DNA of 64,000 bases, taken from Hydrogenophaga flava NBRC 102514 (GTDB lineage: Bacteria; Pseudomonadota; Gammaproteobacteria; Burkholderiales; Burkholderiaceae_C). The notes under the pieces were generated by a model. The model was not told where the DNA came from. It searched no databases and saw only the letters and a program-made list of their open reading frames with translations. Positions 32,416 to 35,689 of this stretch are shown here, piece after piece (position 1 is the stretch's first letter; every line of letters begins with the position of its first letter). Where the stretch lies: contig NZ_BCTF01000024.1 in assembly GCF_001571145.1 (NCBI RefSeq), forward strand, positions 1 through 64,000, read 5' to 3'. The position numbers were made by a program, and so were the translations under genes.

Positions 32416-33354
32416 TCAGGGTTCCAGCAGTGAGAGCGCCAGTGCCAGCCGTGCCTTCACCGGGGACAGCCCGGCGGAGTCTGGCATGGGATTGACCGTG
32501 TCCGGAATCACACGACCTCGGGCGCAGCGAGTGGCCCTGACCACCCGCACACCACAGGCCATGGCCTCCGACAAGGCCGAGGCCAGCGACTGGTGAACCG
32601 TGCCGTTGCCAGTGGCCGCCACCACAATGCCCTGCGGACGCAGGGCCGGTTCCGCCTGCAGCAGCGCGCGAACAATGGAGCCGTCGGCATCGGCATGGCT
32701 GGTCACCAGCTGGACGCGTGGCAGCGCATCGGCCCGCAGCACCCGCGCCAGAAGCGCCTCCGAACGCTTGGCAGTCGGGCGGCTTGCCAGAGGATGGAAC
32801 CACCGGACCTCGCCTTCTTCCACACACGCCACAGGGCCGGCGTCCCCCGAATCGAACGCATCCACCCGGTAGCTGTGAACCTTGGTCAAGTGCTCGGGCG
32901 CGTGCACCTCTCCCGCACAGACCACCACGCATCCATCGATCTCGGGATGACCCGCCACAGTCACCGCATCCAGCAGGTTCTGAGGTCCGTCGGGCACCAG
33001 GGCGGTGGCAGGGCGCATCGCGCAGGTGAACACCACCGGCTTGCGGGGCTGCAGCACCTTCTGGATGAAAAAGGCTGTTTCTTCCAGTGTGTCGGTGCCG
33101 TGTGTGACCACCACGCCGGCCACCTCCTCGCGTGCAAGGTGGTGAGAGAGCCGAAGCAACAGCCGCTTCCACAGACCGAAGTGCATGTCCTTGCTGTCCA
33201 CCTGGTCCACCTGCTCCACCTCCAGTGGGCTGCCTTGCAGCGCTGGAACGCCCTCCAGAAGATCTTCCACACGAACCTGCCCCGCGACGTAGCCCACGTT
33301 ATCACCAGACCGGGCCGCCCGCCCGGCGATCGTTCCGCCGGTCCCCAGAATCAC
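32416..33354 (-). CDS. Asparaginase-family amidohydrolase
   Basis: Hydrolyses L-asparagine (possibly also glutamine) to aspartate and ammonia. The 312-residue protein has the two asparaginase motifs, [14 protein letters not shown] near the N-terminus with the first catalytic threonine, and [17 protein letters not shown] with the second threonine-aspartate pair. No signal peptide is seen, so it should be cytoplasmic. The start is set at a GTG (33354) because AGGAG lies seven bases upstream; a TTG at 33396 would place the message start on an SOS box. Divergent from lexA. Confidence 0.87.
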
Positions 33355-33398
33355 GCAAAGGCTCCTGTTGTTGTCGTTCACTTGCCAAGTCTCCAAAA

Positions 33399-33414
33399 CT
33401 GTTTAAAAATACAG
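33399..33414 (+). promoter_or_regulatory. LexA-binding SOS box 1
   Basis: CTGTTTAAAAATACAG matches the CTG-N10-CAG core, with an AT-rich centre, of the SOS box (CTGTATATATATACAG-like). It lies 57 bases before the lexA ATG and should allow autoregulation. Confidence 0.85.
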
Positions 33415-33417
33415 ATA

Positions 33418-33433
33418 CTGGATATGCAAACAG
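33418..33433 (+). promoter_or_regulatory. LexA-binding SOS box 2
   Basis: CTGGATATGCAAACAG is a second CTG-N10-CAG site three bases after the first. Paired boxes before lexA resemble the E. coli lexA promoter and imply cooperative autorepression; the divergent asparaginase could also be affected. Confidence 0.75.
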
Positions 33434-33470
33434 CTCATCCAGCATTACCCCGCCAAACCACGAGGTTGAC

Positions 33471-34151
33471 ATGATCGAGTCGTTCCCGCCCAAGCTCACG
33501 GCCCGCCAGCAGCAAATCCTGGAGCTGATCCAGAACGCCATTGCCCGCACGGGCGCTCCGCCCACCCGCGCAGAAATTGCGACCGAGCTTGGCTTCAAGT
33601 CGGCCAATGCAGCCGAGGAGCACCTTCAGGCGCTCGCTCGCAAAGGCATGATCGAACTGGTCAGCGGTACATCCCGCGGAATCCGCCTTCGCAGCCGGGA
33701 CTTGCAGGCCATCAACGATCAAAGGGCTCAGCAGCTTACACTGCCGCTGCCCGGCCTTGCGCAGCTCATGCTGCCCTTGATCGGACGGGTGGCAGCCGGC
33801 TCCCCGATCCTCGCGCAGGAGCATGTCGACCAGACCTACCACGTCGAACGCAGCCTGTTCCAGCGCACCCCCGACTACTTGCTGCGCGTGCGCGGCATGT
33901 CCATGCGCGACGTCGGCATCCTCGACGGCGACCTGCTGGCGGTCCAGTCTGGCAAGGAAGCAAAAAATGGACAGATCGTGGTGGCCAGACTCGGTGACGA
34001 CGTGACTGTCAAGCGCTTCATGCGCCGCGACCACCAAATCGAGCTGCACGCGGAAAACCCCGACTACAAAACCATCGTGGTGCAACCGGGTGAACCCTTC
34101 GAAATCGAAGGCCTCGCCGTGGGCCTGATTCGCAACAGCTTCCAGATCTGA
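33471..34151 (+). CDS. lexA: SOS repressor LexA
   Basis: Represses DNA-damage genes and self-cleaves when RecA is activated. The 226-residue protein has a winged helix-turn-helix (about 1-75; [23 protein letters not shown]) and a C-terminal S24 protease domain with cleavage site Ala109-Gly110 (VAAGSP), catalytic Ser144 (RGMSMRD) and Lys181 (DVTVKRF). The ATG at 33471 has GAGG about eight bases upstream. Two SOS boxes precede it. A nested hairpin follows. Confidence 0.97.
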
Positions 34152-34165
34152 CCCGCTGGGTCGGT

Positions 34166-34235
34166 GCCGCCCTCGCAGGTGGCGGGCGTTTTGCCAGGAC
34201 AGCGCACTGTCCTTGGCAAACCCTGCGAAGGCGGC
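34166..34235. repeat. Large nested inverted repeat after lexA
   Basis: Outer arms of 14 bases (34166-34179 and 34222-34235; 13 of 14 pair) enclose inner arms TTTGCCAGGACAG and CTGTCCTTGGCAAA (34190-34202 and 34207-34220; one bulge) around the four-base loop CGCA. A ten-base internal loop lies on the left side only. The full structure spans 70 bases. No T-run follows. It could be a strong RNA structure, a mobile repeat or a regulatory element between lexA and the next gene. Confidence 0.75.
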
Positions 34236-34283
34236 TCTTCCGAACCAATCCTGCCTGTGTCCAACCCCTTTCCGGAGTTTCAC

Positions 34284-34634
34284 ATGGGAATCCGCATCAC
34301 ATCCAAGACCTGGCGCGCACCGCTGCAGCTGATCGACAGCTGGCTGCCGTCCCCTCCTTGTCCGTACAAGACCCGCAAGCCGCTGCCAACGCTCATGCAG
34401 CGGTTTGTCAGGGCCGGATGGTTGGCCAACAAGCAACCAAAGCAGTCGCCGCCGGTCTCTCCCAGCGCTTCCATGGCCGAGGTGTCTCGCCCCTCAAGGC
34501 CTGCAACCATTCGCCTGAAGCACGCCAGCCAACCGGATCAAAACGCTTGCCTGGTGATTTCAGGGCGCATGGCCGATGTCTGTGCCGAACTGGACCGTCT
34601 GGCTGCGCTCGAGCACTGCACCGAACCCGCCTGA
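34284..34634 (+). CDS. Small protein of unknown function downstream of lexA
   Basis: A 116-residue protein I do not recognise by family. The ATG at 34284 has CCGGAG eight bases upstream, supporting translation. The N-terminal half is basic and Pro-rich (WRAPLQLIDSWLPSPPCPYK); the C-terminal stretch CLVISGRMADVCAELDRLAALE has amphipathic helix character and looks like the conserved core. It lies 132 bases after lexA and behind the nested hairpin. Gene order recalls Pseudomonas, where lexA is followed by the cell-division inhibitor sulA, but I see no clear SulA motif. Confidence 0.65.
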   Translation: MGIRITSKTWRAPLQLIDSWLPSPPCPYKTRKPLPTLMQRFVRAGWLANKQPKQSPPVSPSASMAEVSRPSRPATIRLKHASQPDQNACLVISGRMADVCAELDRLAALEHCTEPA

Positions 34635-34681
34635 CAGCGCAAAGGCTGAACAGAATGCTCATGGCGGCACAATAGTGCCCC

Positions 34682-35689
34682 ATGAACATCGTGATATTGG
34701 ACGACTATCAAGACGCCGTCCGAAAGCTGGATTGCGCAGCACGCCTTGACCCCTATCCCGCCAAAGTCTTCACCAACACGGTCAAGGGGGTCGGGCAGCT
34801 GTCCATACGGTTGCGGGATGCCGACATCGTGGTCCTGATCCGGGAAAGAACACCAATATCCCGCCAACTGGTTGACAAGCTGCCTCGCCTGAAACTCATT
34901 GCGCAGACCGGGCGTATCGGCAGCCACATTGACGTCAATGCCTGCACCGAGCGTGGCATTGCTGTGGCCGAAGGCAAAAGTTCCCCGGTGTCCACAGCTG
35001 AGCTCACATGGGCGCTGGTCATGGCGTCGATGCGGCGCATCCCCCAGTATGTGGCAAGCCTCAAGCACGGCGCCTGGCAACAGTCGGGGCTGAAGTCATC
35101 GTCCATGCCTGCCAACTTCGGCCTGGGCATGGTTCTTCACGGCAAGACACTCGGCTTGTGGAGCTATGGCCGTATCGGCAAGCTGGTTGCGGCCTATGGC
35201 AAAGCTTTTGGCATGCAGGTGCTGGTCTGGGGTGGCGAAGAGTCCTGCCAGCAGGCAGTTGCCGATGGCTTTGAGGTCGCAACCAGCCGCGAAGATCTCT
35301 TTGAACGCTCGGATGTGCTGAGCCTCCACCTTCGACTCAGTGACCGCAGCGCGGGCTGTGTCACGCTGGAGGATCTTTCTCGCATGAAGCCAACCGCATT
35401 GCTGGTCAATACTTCGAGAGCCGAACTGATCGAGGCCGAGGCCTTGCTGACCGCCTTGAACCGGGGCCGCCCTGGCATGGCGGCCATTGATGTGTTCGAA
35501 TCCGAGCCGATTCTTCAGGGCCACGCACTGCTCAGGCTGGAGAACTGCATCTGCACGCCTCACATCGGCTACGTCGAACTCAGCAACTACGAGACGCTGT
35601 TCTCGGCTGCCTTTGACAACGTGGTCAATTTCATCAAGGGTACGCCCACCAACATCGTCAACCCCGGCGCCCTACAGGTGAGGCGCTGA
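34682..35689 (+). CDS. D-isomer-specific 2-hydroxyacid dehydrogenase
   Basis: NAD(P)-dependent oxidoreductase of the D-2-hydroxyacid dehydrogenase family, role unassigned. The 335-residue protein has substrate- and cofactor-domain motifs LGLWSYGRIGKLVAAYGKAFG, LVNTSRAELIEAEAL (catalytic Arg), AIDVFESEP (Glu) and CTPHIGYVE (His). In the dinucleotide-binding turn the first glycine of GxGxxG reads Ser (SYGRIG), a departure seen in some relatives. It is 47 bases after the small gene and may be cotranscribed; a terminator follows. Confidence 0.82.
   Translation: MNIVILDDYQDAVRKLDCAARLDPYPAKVFTNTVKGVGQLSIRLRDADIVVLIRERTPISRQLVDKLPRLKLIAQTGRIGSHIDVNACTERGIAVAEGKSSPVSTAELTWALVMASMRRIPQYVASLKHGAWQQSGLKSSSMPANFGLGMVLHGKTLGLWSYGRIGKLVAAYGKAFGMQVLVWGGEESCQQAVADGFEVATSREDLFERSDVLSLHLRLSDRSAGCVTLEDLSRMKPTALLVNTSRAELIEAEALLTALNRGRPGMAAIDVFESEPILQGHALLRLENCICTPHIGYVELSNYETLFSAAFDNVVNFIKGTPTNIVNPGALQVRR

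Follow-up and report, generated by a model that had tools for sequence, protein, structure and literature searches.

In the window analyzed here (i.e., the whole 64,000-nucleotide stretch of DNA from Hydrogenophaga flava NBRC 102514), the interval between lexA and a small downstream gene carries an element (34161..34268, + strand; matched by covariance models R1 and R2) that, judged by covariation across relatives, is a conserved structured RNA including a pseudoknot. We propose with moderate confidence, from comparative sequence analysis, that it is a cis-acting leader RNA of SOS transcripts that would control the downstream gene at translation initiation. Upstream of the element lies lexA (33471..34151, + strand; TIGR00498, 229.5 bits, cut-off 110.95; Pfam LexA_DNA_bind and Peptidase_S24). 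Downstream lies a small conserved gene (34284..34634, + strand; 116 aa), preceded by a Shine-Dalgarno-like GGAG read from the sequence (34274..34277, + strand).

The sequence-only reading had described two concentric inverted repeats at 34166-34235. The hairpin exists, with arms, tetraloop, mismatch, and bulge as described: the outer arms (34166-34179 and 34222-34235, + strand) match at 14 positions with one C.A mismatch at 34172/34229, the inner arms (34190-34202 and 34207-34220, + strand) form 13 bp with T34213 bulged, and the loop is CGCA (34203-34206, + strand). RNA folding of 34150-34250 gave -53.0 kcal/mol; a set of 200 dinucleotide shuffles gave -39.4 ± 3.5 kcal/mol, and none of them folded to so low an energy (z = -3.9). 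The repeats are not simply concentric, however, because approximately 10 bases of the 5' side (34180-34189) are unpaired within the hairpin, and these bases are the best-conserved part of the element. The coordinates were thus right for the hairpin core but left out the 3' partner of the bulge (34250-34255). The apical hairpin is the least conserved part among relatives, so the 13-bp inner stem is a local feature.

The revised structure consists of a P1/P2 stem, a bulge, a variable cap, and a 3' tail, all on the + strand. Folding and covariation support both the P1 5' arm (34166..34171, pairing with 34230-34235) and the P2 5' arm (34173..34179, pairing with 34222-34228); the two 3' arms together occupy 34222..34235. 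The conserved 8-nt bulge UGGCGGGC (34180..34187) is followed by the apical hairpin P3 (34188..34221; consensus closing pair, G34188-C34221), which is very variable in sequence and length. Within the bulge, GGCGGG (34181-34186) pairs with CCUGCC (34250-34255) in the conserved tail CAAUCCUGCCUGUGUCCAAC (34246..34265), forming the two strands of the pseudoknot. An alignment of 20 relatives gave the same division: the outer stem varied in sequence with pairing mostly kept, the inner hairpin was highly variable, and the near-fixed parts were the 5' bulge GGUGGCGGGCG and a downstream stretch CAAUCCUGCCUGUGUUCAAC, which begins approximately 10 nt 3' of the stem in the window. Several bases beside the pseudoknot are near-invariant and have no partner (U27, C34, A173, A174, and U175; alignment positions).

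Pairing in this structure is preserved through sequence change. For the whole structure (25 pairs), 90.2% of the cells were paired in alignment A4, whose P1-P3 columns were fitted to the model, which favors those pairs. Changes on both sides of a pair occurred in 382 cells, compared with 116 ± 8 after shuffling; the observed values were not reached in any of 500 shuffles, and slid controls had 34 to 54% of cells paired. A MAFFT alignment of 24 diverse sequences, which was not fitted to the structure, agreed with this picture for the stem. In a scan of all column pairs, ranks 1 to 8 were model pairs, as were 10 of the 12 top ranks; ranks 9 and 10 were new pairs, namely, a P1 extension (columns 7-149) and a pair just inside the bulge (columns 36-127). 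Lower ranks were mixed and often matched one variable column with fixed G columns. Columns 35-128 were GC in 98 rows and AU in 1; with this pair added, the structure becomes one long helix with the 8-nt bulge, the middle six bases of which are paired to the 3' tail. The suggestion that the repeat could be a structured RNA was therefore borne out by covariation across relatives, and the RNA is probably cis-acting.

The pseudoknot was proposed from the first relatives and then checked on more distant ones. In an alignment of 102 matches (100 loci) built with a model lacking the pseudoknot pairs, all six pairs were kept in 97 rows, and 99.7% of the cells were paired; the remaining 5 rows had gaps or a single broken pair. 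Every cell of the six pairs was also a standard pair in the MAFFT alignment of 24 sequences. Compensated double changes affected two different pairs (GACGGG/CCUGUC in L104 and AGCGGG/CCUGCU in L201). One-sided changes that left the pairing intact were GGCAGG/CCUGCC (L113, L173, and L202), GGUAGG/CCUGCC (L207), and GGCGGG/CUCGCC (L015, L019, L179, and L184). The rows with changed pairs span seven genera; they are few because most pseudoknot columns hardly vary. One pseudoknot pair is G.U in 89 rows and would be an A.C mismatch on the opposite strand, which assigns the structure to the + strand RNA.

When 40 relatives were searched at the DNA level, the region turned up in 22, every one within the genus; this amounts to 22 of the 24 genomes of the genus, the window's own included, so that the absence from close relatives that the sequence-only reading had named as one half of its refutation was not borne out. 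Of 299 family genomes searched with covariance model R1, 92 contained the element, distributed over 47 of 141 genera (93 matches, of which two are neighboring pieces in G263), with one locus per genome at an E value of ≤0.001. In 90 of the 92 genomes, the element follows lexA immediately and in the same orientation; a recognizable small gene comes next in 89 of these 90 (the exception is L159). The two genomes that depart from the lexA position are G053, where the element precedes a helicase gene, and G146, whose match (L217; E = 1.6e-4) covered the model partially, lay apart from both lexA and the helicase gene, and was treated as due to chance. Named carriers include Hydrogenophaga, Variovorax, Ramlibacter, Xenophilus, and some Limnohabitans; the element is absent from other Limnohabitans and from six loci titled Rhodoferax. 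One further locus (L224 in G166) has lexA and the small gene and no model match; a stem there, with GGUAGG, resembles that of the element, and CCUGCC follows downstream. This is possibly a diverged form of the element.

Broader searches returned no convincing copy outside the family among 399 genomes of the order and 274 of the class. The order-wide search matched 9 genomes, all in the window's own family. The class-wide search gave 4 matches, two of them in the genus, and no convincing further member; L285 lies inside a 386-codon reading frame, and L286 is a weak match (E = 0.0066). The genome counts are lower bounds because the stricter filters used in large searches can lose weak matches. 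When 24 relatives were searched at E values up to 1, further matches appeared solely at 0.03 or worse. A sequence pattern was also sought in 200 family genomes, with hits in 47; most of the extra hits, beyond those behind lexA or in helicase leaders, lacked AATCC before TGCC and looked like chance, and the hit in G197 adjoins its small gene. Six matches on viral contigs, four of them with the same sequence, were also taken as chance; neither lexA nor the small gene was found on these contigs. Plasmids and phages yielded no match to one Variovorax element.

The element is well supported, at the level of sequence, as part of an SOS-regulated transcript, which upholds the earlier reading to that extent. 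Two AT-rich CTG-N10-CAG boxes, which we take to be LexA sites by the E. coli-type consensus, lie upstream of lexA: CTGTTTAAAAATACAG (33399..33414, + strand) and, 19 bp after it, CTGGATATGCAAACAG (33418..33433, + strand). Among 151 distinct lexA loci, this 19-bp box pair was present in 128, a 20-bp pair in 1, a single box in 17, and no box in 5. No terminator-like site was found in 33300-34800, i.e., between lexA and the small gene or around them, and the copies of the element before helicase genes stand behind a like box pair.

These helicase copies provide a second setting. In G053, a genome of another genus than the window's, the element occupies the leader of a helicase gene (L206, 1040-1186), directly after the boxes CTGATTAAAAATACAG and CTGGATACTTTACCAG, which are 19 bp apart; lexA and the small gene of the same genome are 24 nt apart and without the element (L220). 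The gene product resembles PcrA/UvrD/Rep helicases (371-aa piece; best hit, TIGR01073 with 250 bits, below the full-length cut-off). The helicase is present in 2 of 26 genomes of that genus, and the second, G725 (L261), has the same arrangement of box pair, element, and helicase gene, with the pseudoknot variant GGCAGG/CCUGCC; this locus entered no model and scored an E value of 3.2e-5 in 25.6 kb. Three other matches in the helicase genus (L257-L259; E = 0.018 to 0.036) had no matching core and were rejected. With start codons assigned by us, the pseudoknot ends 26 nt (G053) and 24 nt (G725) before the helicase ATG. There is no evident Shine-Dalgarno sequence before the assigned ATG in G053, and GAAGAAG is the sole Shine-Dalgarno-like stretch in the G725 leader. 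A search for related helicases matched 6 of 60 family genomes, G053 included; the five related helicases from other genera had no convincing element, and three of the five had a single AT-rich box upstream.

The protein family of the small gene is more widely spread than the element, occurring in 99 of 200 family genomes and 73 of 141 genera. Its closest named relative is from H. pseudoflava (88% identity). The protein received no assignment in Pfam, NCBIfam, PHROGs, or PDB and has no recognized RNA-binding domain; its predicted structure was poor (mean pLDDT, 60.4; pTM, 0.25), and alignments revealed a near-invariant C-terminal stretch, VISGRMADVCAELDRLAA, and a loosely conserved N terminus. 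It is possibly an SOS protein. Of 110 loci fetched via the small gene (L021-L130), lexA adjoins in 109; in the other, L049, the sequence starts only 151 bases ahead of the match. Separately, six loci whose protein had no match to the C-terminal motif pattern were dropped. We scored 96 distinct loci for the element after leaving out 12 of 108; L055 and L053, which carry the variant CUCGCC missed by the scoring pattern, were counted as having the element. It was present in 70 loci and absent from 26, in which the small gene still stands behind lexA, so the element is dispensable in some lineages. The distance from lexA to the start of the small gene had a median of approximately 130 nt with the element and was 8 to 82 nt without it. 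Two loci (L164 and L165) have a complete element behind lexA and no Shine-Dalgarno-backed start codon at the usual distance; a recognizable part of the small gene lies approximately 480 to 760 nt away.

Our preferred mechanism would begin with DNA damage, which would induce the transcript through LexA. The RNA would then fold into the P1/P2 stem with its 8-nt bulge, capped by the variable P3, and the bulge would form the GGCGGG-CCUGCC pseudoknot. An initiating 30S subunit has a footprint such that a pseudoknot approximately 30 nt before the start codon falls just upstream of it. Placed there, the pseudoknot might help ribosome loading (by standby or S1 binding) or might block the ribosome until a signal arrives; either way, the RNA would set the amount of downstream protein made. 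Action on the downstream gene, at translation initiation, is the step that we infer, as the best mechanism that the sequences suggest. We favor action in cis because the element is the last conserved feature before the start codon in both of its settings, after lexA and in the leaders of the helicase genes. We favor translation initiation because the pseudoknot ends 24 to 40 nt before the ATG in 122 of 137 members (28 nt in the window), these members being those with an assignable ATG; six loci without one were left out.

Some observations count against translation control. One comes from secondary-structure predictions made without the pseudoknot, a method that does not cover pseudoknot-dependent effects; these gave no sign that the ribosome binding site is masked in a conserved way (openness, 0.423, compared with 0.413 for shuffled linkers and 0.424 with the pseudoknot strand free). 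Others are the absence of the element from part of the family and the T-runs that follow the stem in a minority of members. We also considered an upstream reading frame or an N-terminal extension of the small protein, since AGGUGG followed by NUG resembled a leader start. This candidate was rejected: a start codon is missing from this place, or replaced by CTG, in 32 of 137 members, the frames range from 1 to 220 codons, and no one frame relative to the small gene predominates (49, 45, and 43).

Among other explanations, a metabolite-sensing riboswitch is unlikely, although less so than the rest. The bulge and the AAU before CCUGCC would form a ligand pocket, and the ligand would stabilize the pseudoknot and thereby alter downstream expression; the near-invariant unpaired bases beside the pseudoknot, the variable apical hairpin, and the place just before a gene all fit. 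However, folding (again without the pseudoknot) revealed no conserved expression platform, no Rfam riboswitch matched, and the element is tied to one uncharacterized gene family and, in two genomes, a helicase rather than to metabolic or transport genes. We consider it quite unlikely that the element is a processing or stability element that splits the lexA and small-gene messages and so permits unequal protein amounts. A stable stem between co-oriented genes and the longer gap where the element is present would suit such a role, but the helicase leaders have no known upstream gene in the same message, and the sequence conservation of the bulge and tail exceeds the needs of a barrier. It is decidedly unlikely that the RNA is an operator bound by a protein, either the small protein in autoregulation or a general RNA-binding protein. 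The element does almost always immediately precede the small gene; strict autoregulation is nevertheless hard to reconcile with the 26 of 96 loci that have the small gene without the element and with the copies before a helicase gene, and the small protein lacks a recognized RNA-binding domain.

A trans-acting small RNA from the lexA 3' region, which the conserved, single-stranded-looking tail UGUGUUCAACCUC would suit, is very improbable: the window has no terminator-like site at the end of the element, which always lies right before a start codon, including in the helicase leader. Equally improbable is the transcription attenuator that the sequence-only reading had offered as one option. At least 5 T's in 8 bases follow the stem in 23 of 100 rows, with a run of 5 or 6 T's in 11, and one helicase leader has TTTTTT; the other 77 rows lack such a stretch, the window has no terminator-like site, and the conserved pseudoknot strand would be transcribed only past such a terminator, so that most members give attenuation no support. 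Loci with 5 or 6 T's right after the stem include L156, L170, L023, L014, and L206. Given the 11 rows with such runs, the stem might also end transcription in some species. A mobile repeat of the REP or MITE kind, the remaining earlier option, was suggested by a long intergenic inverted repeat and is refuted by copy number and fixed position (a single locus per genome, behind lexA in 90 of 92), and plasmids and phages had no match to the Variovorax element searched. Control of the downstream gene by a cis-acting leader at translation initiation remains our preferred reading.

Comparison with known RNAs placed the element near several systems. No Rfam 15 family reached its gathering score in the element region (four tRNAs only in the whole window; 10 relatives' loci were also searched), and lax Rfam searches of 34100-34320 and of L070 2360-2500 gave sub-threshold, chance-like families only. 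Translational pseudoknot riboswitches (e.g., preQ1 and SAM-II) have a compact pseudoknot near the ribosome binding site and fixed unpaired bases. The element shares these traits; in contrast to those riboswitches, its Shine-Dalgarno sequence lies outside the pseudoknot and it has no Rfam match. The sbcD RNA (RF01757), named for a DNA-repair gene, is likewise a structured RNA motif of Burkholderiales, but it did not match the window or the relatives tested. A report on the SOS-induced tisB mRNA of Escherichia coli describes a leader pseudoknot needed for translation, a ribosome binding site sequestered by structure, and, approximately 100 nt 5' of that site, a single-stranded standby region (PMC7708055). 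The two cases share a message that is, or in ours would be, SOS induced and a pseudoknot upstream of the coding start, the translation role being a proposal for our element; the gene and the bacteria differ, the pseudoknot here ends approximately 30 nt before the ATG, and conserved sequestration was not found. The timP mRNA likewise has a leader pseudoknot, which is essential for translation initiation, but timP is an enterobacterial type I toxin with an antitoxin RNA (PMC11228461).

A 2010 catalogue of 104 candidate RNAs has a table entry for a Burkholderiales-1 motif, whose status is given as uncertain and to which no Rfam number is attached (PMC2864571). This motif is from the same bacterial order and, compared by its table entry and not by alignment, could be the same as the lexA-linked element (PMC2864571). 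Within the literature covered, in which Burkholderiales-1 was represented by that table entry only, we found no description of a lexA-linked element. The element is therefore likely uncatalogued, which stays short of proven because of the way in which Burkholderiales-1 was compared. Structured leader RNAs as such are already known; the lexA-tied family appears to be new.

SOS control is usually described as transcriptional, via LexA cleavage. The conserved RNA between lexA and its neighbor, carried by numerous members of a single environmental family, suggests that at least one SOS-linked gene has a further layer of control at the RNA level (carriers: Hydrogenophaga, Variovorax, some Limnohabitans, Ramlibacter, and Xenophilus). 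More tentatively, and with considerable doubt, we suggest that an uncatalogued pseudoknot class has been wired into the SOS response, in the lexA transcript and before an SOS-box-preceded helicase gene, where it would sense a metabolite, a protein, or the state of the ribosome and act as a post-transcriptional checkpoint on LexA control. The element is a defined target for such ideas, testable by a few compensatory mutations.

On the other side of the LexA-type boxes, a reading frame divergent from lexA (32416-33396, - strand) starts beside them and may share the operator region with lexA. Its product starts with TGGTIAG, which we take to be an asparaginase-like motif.
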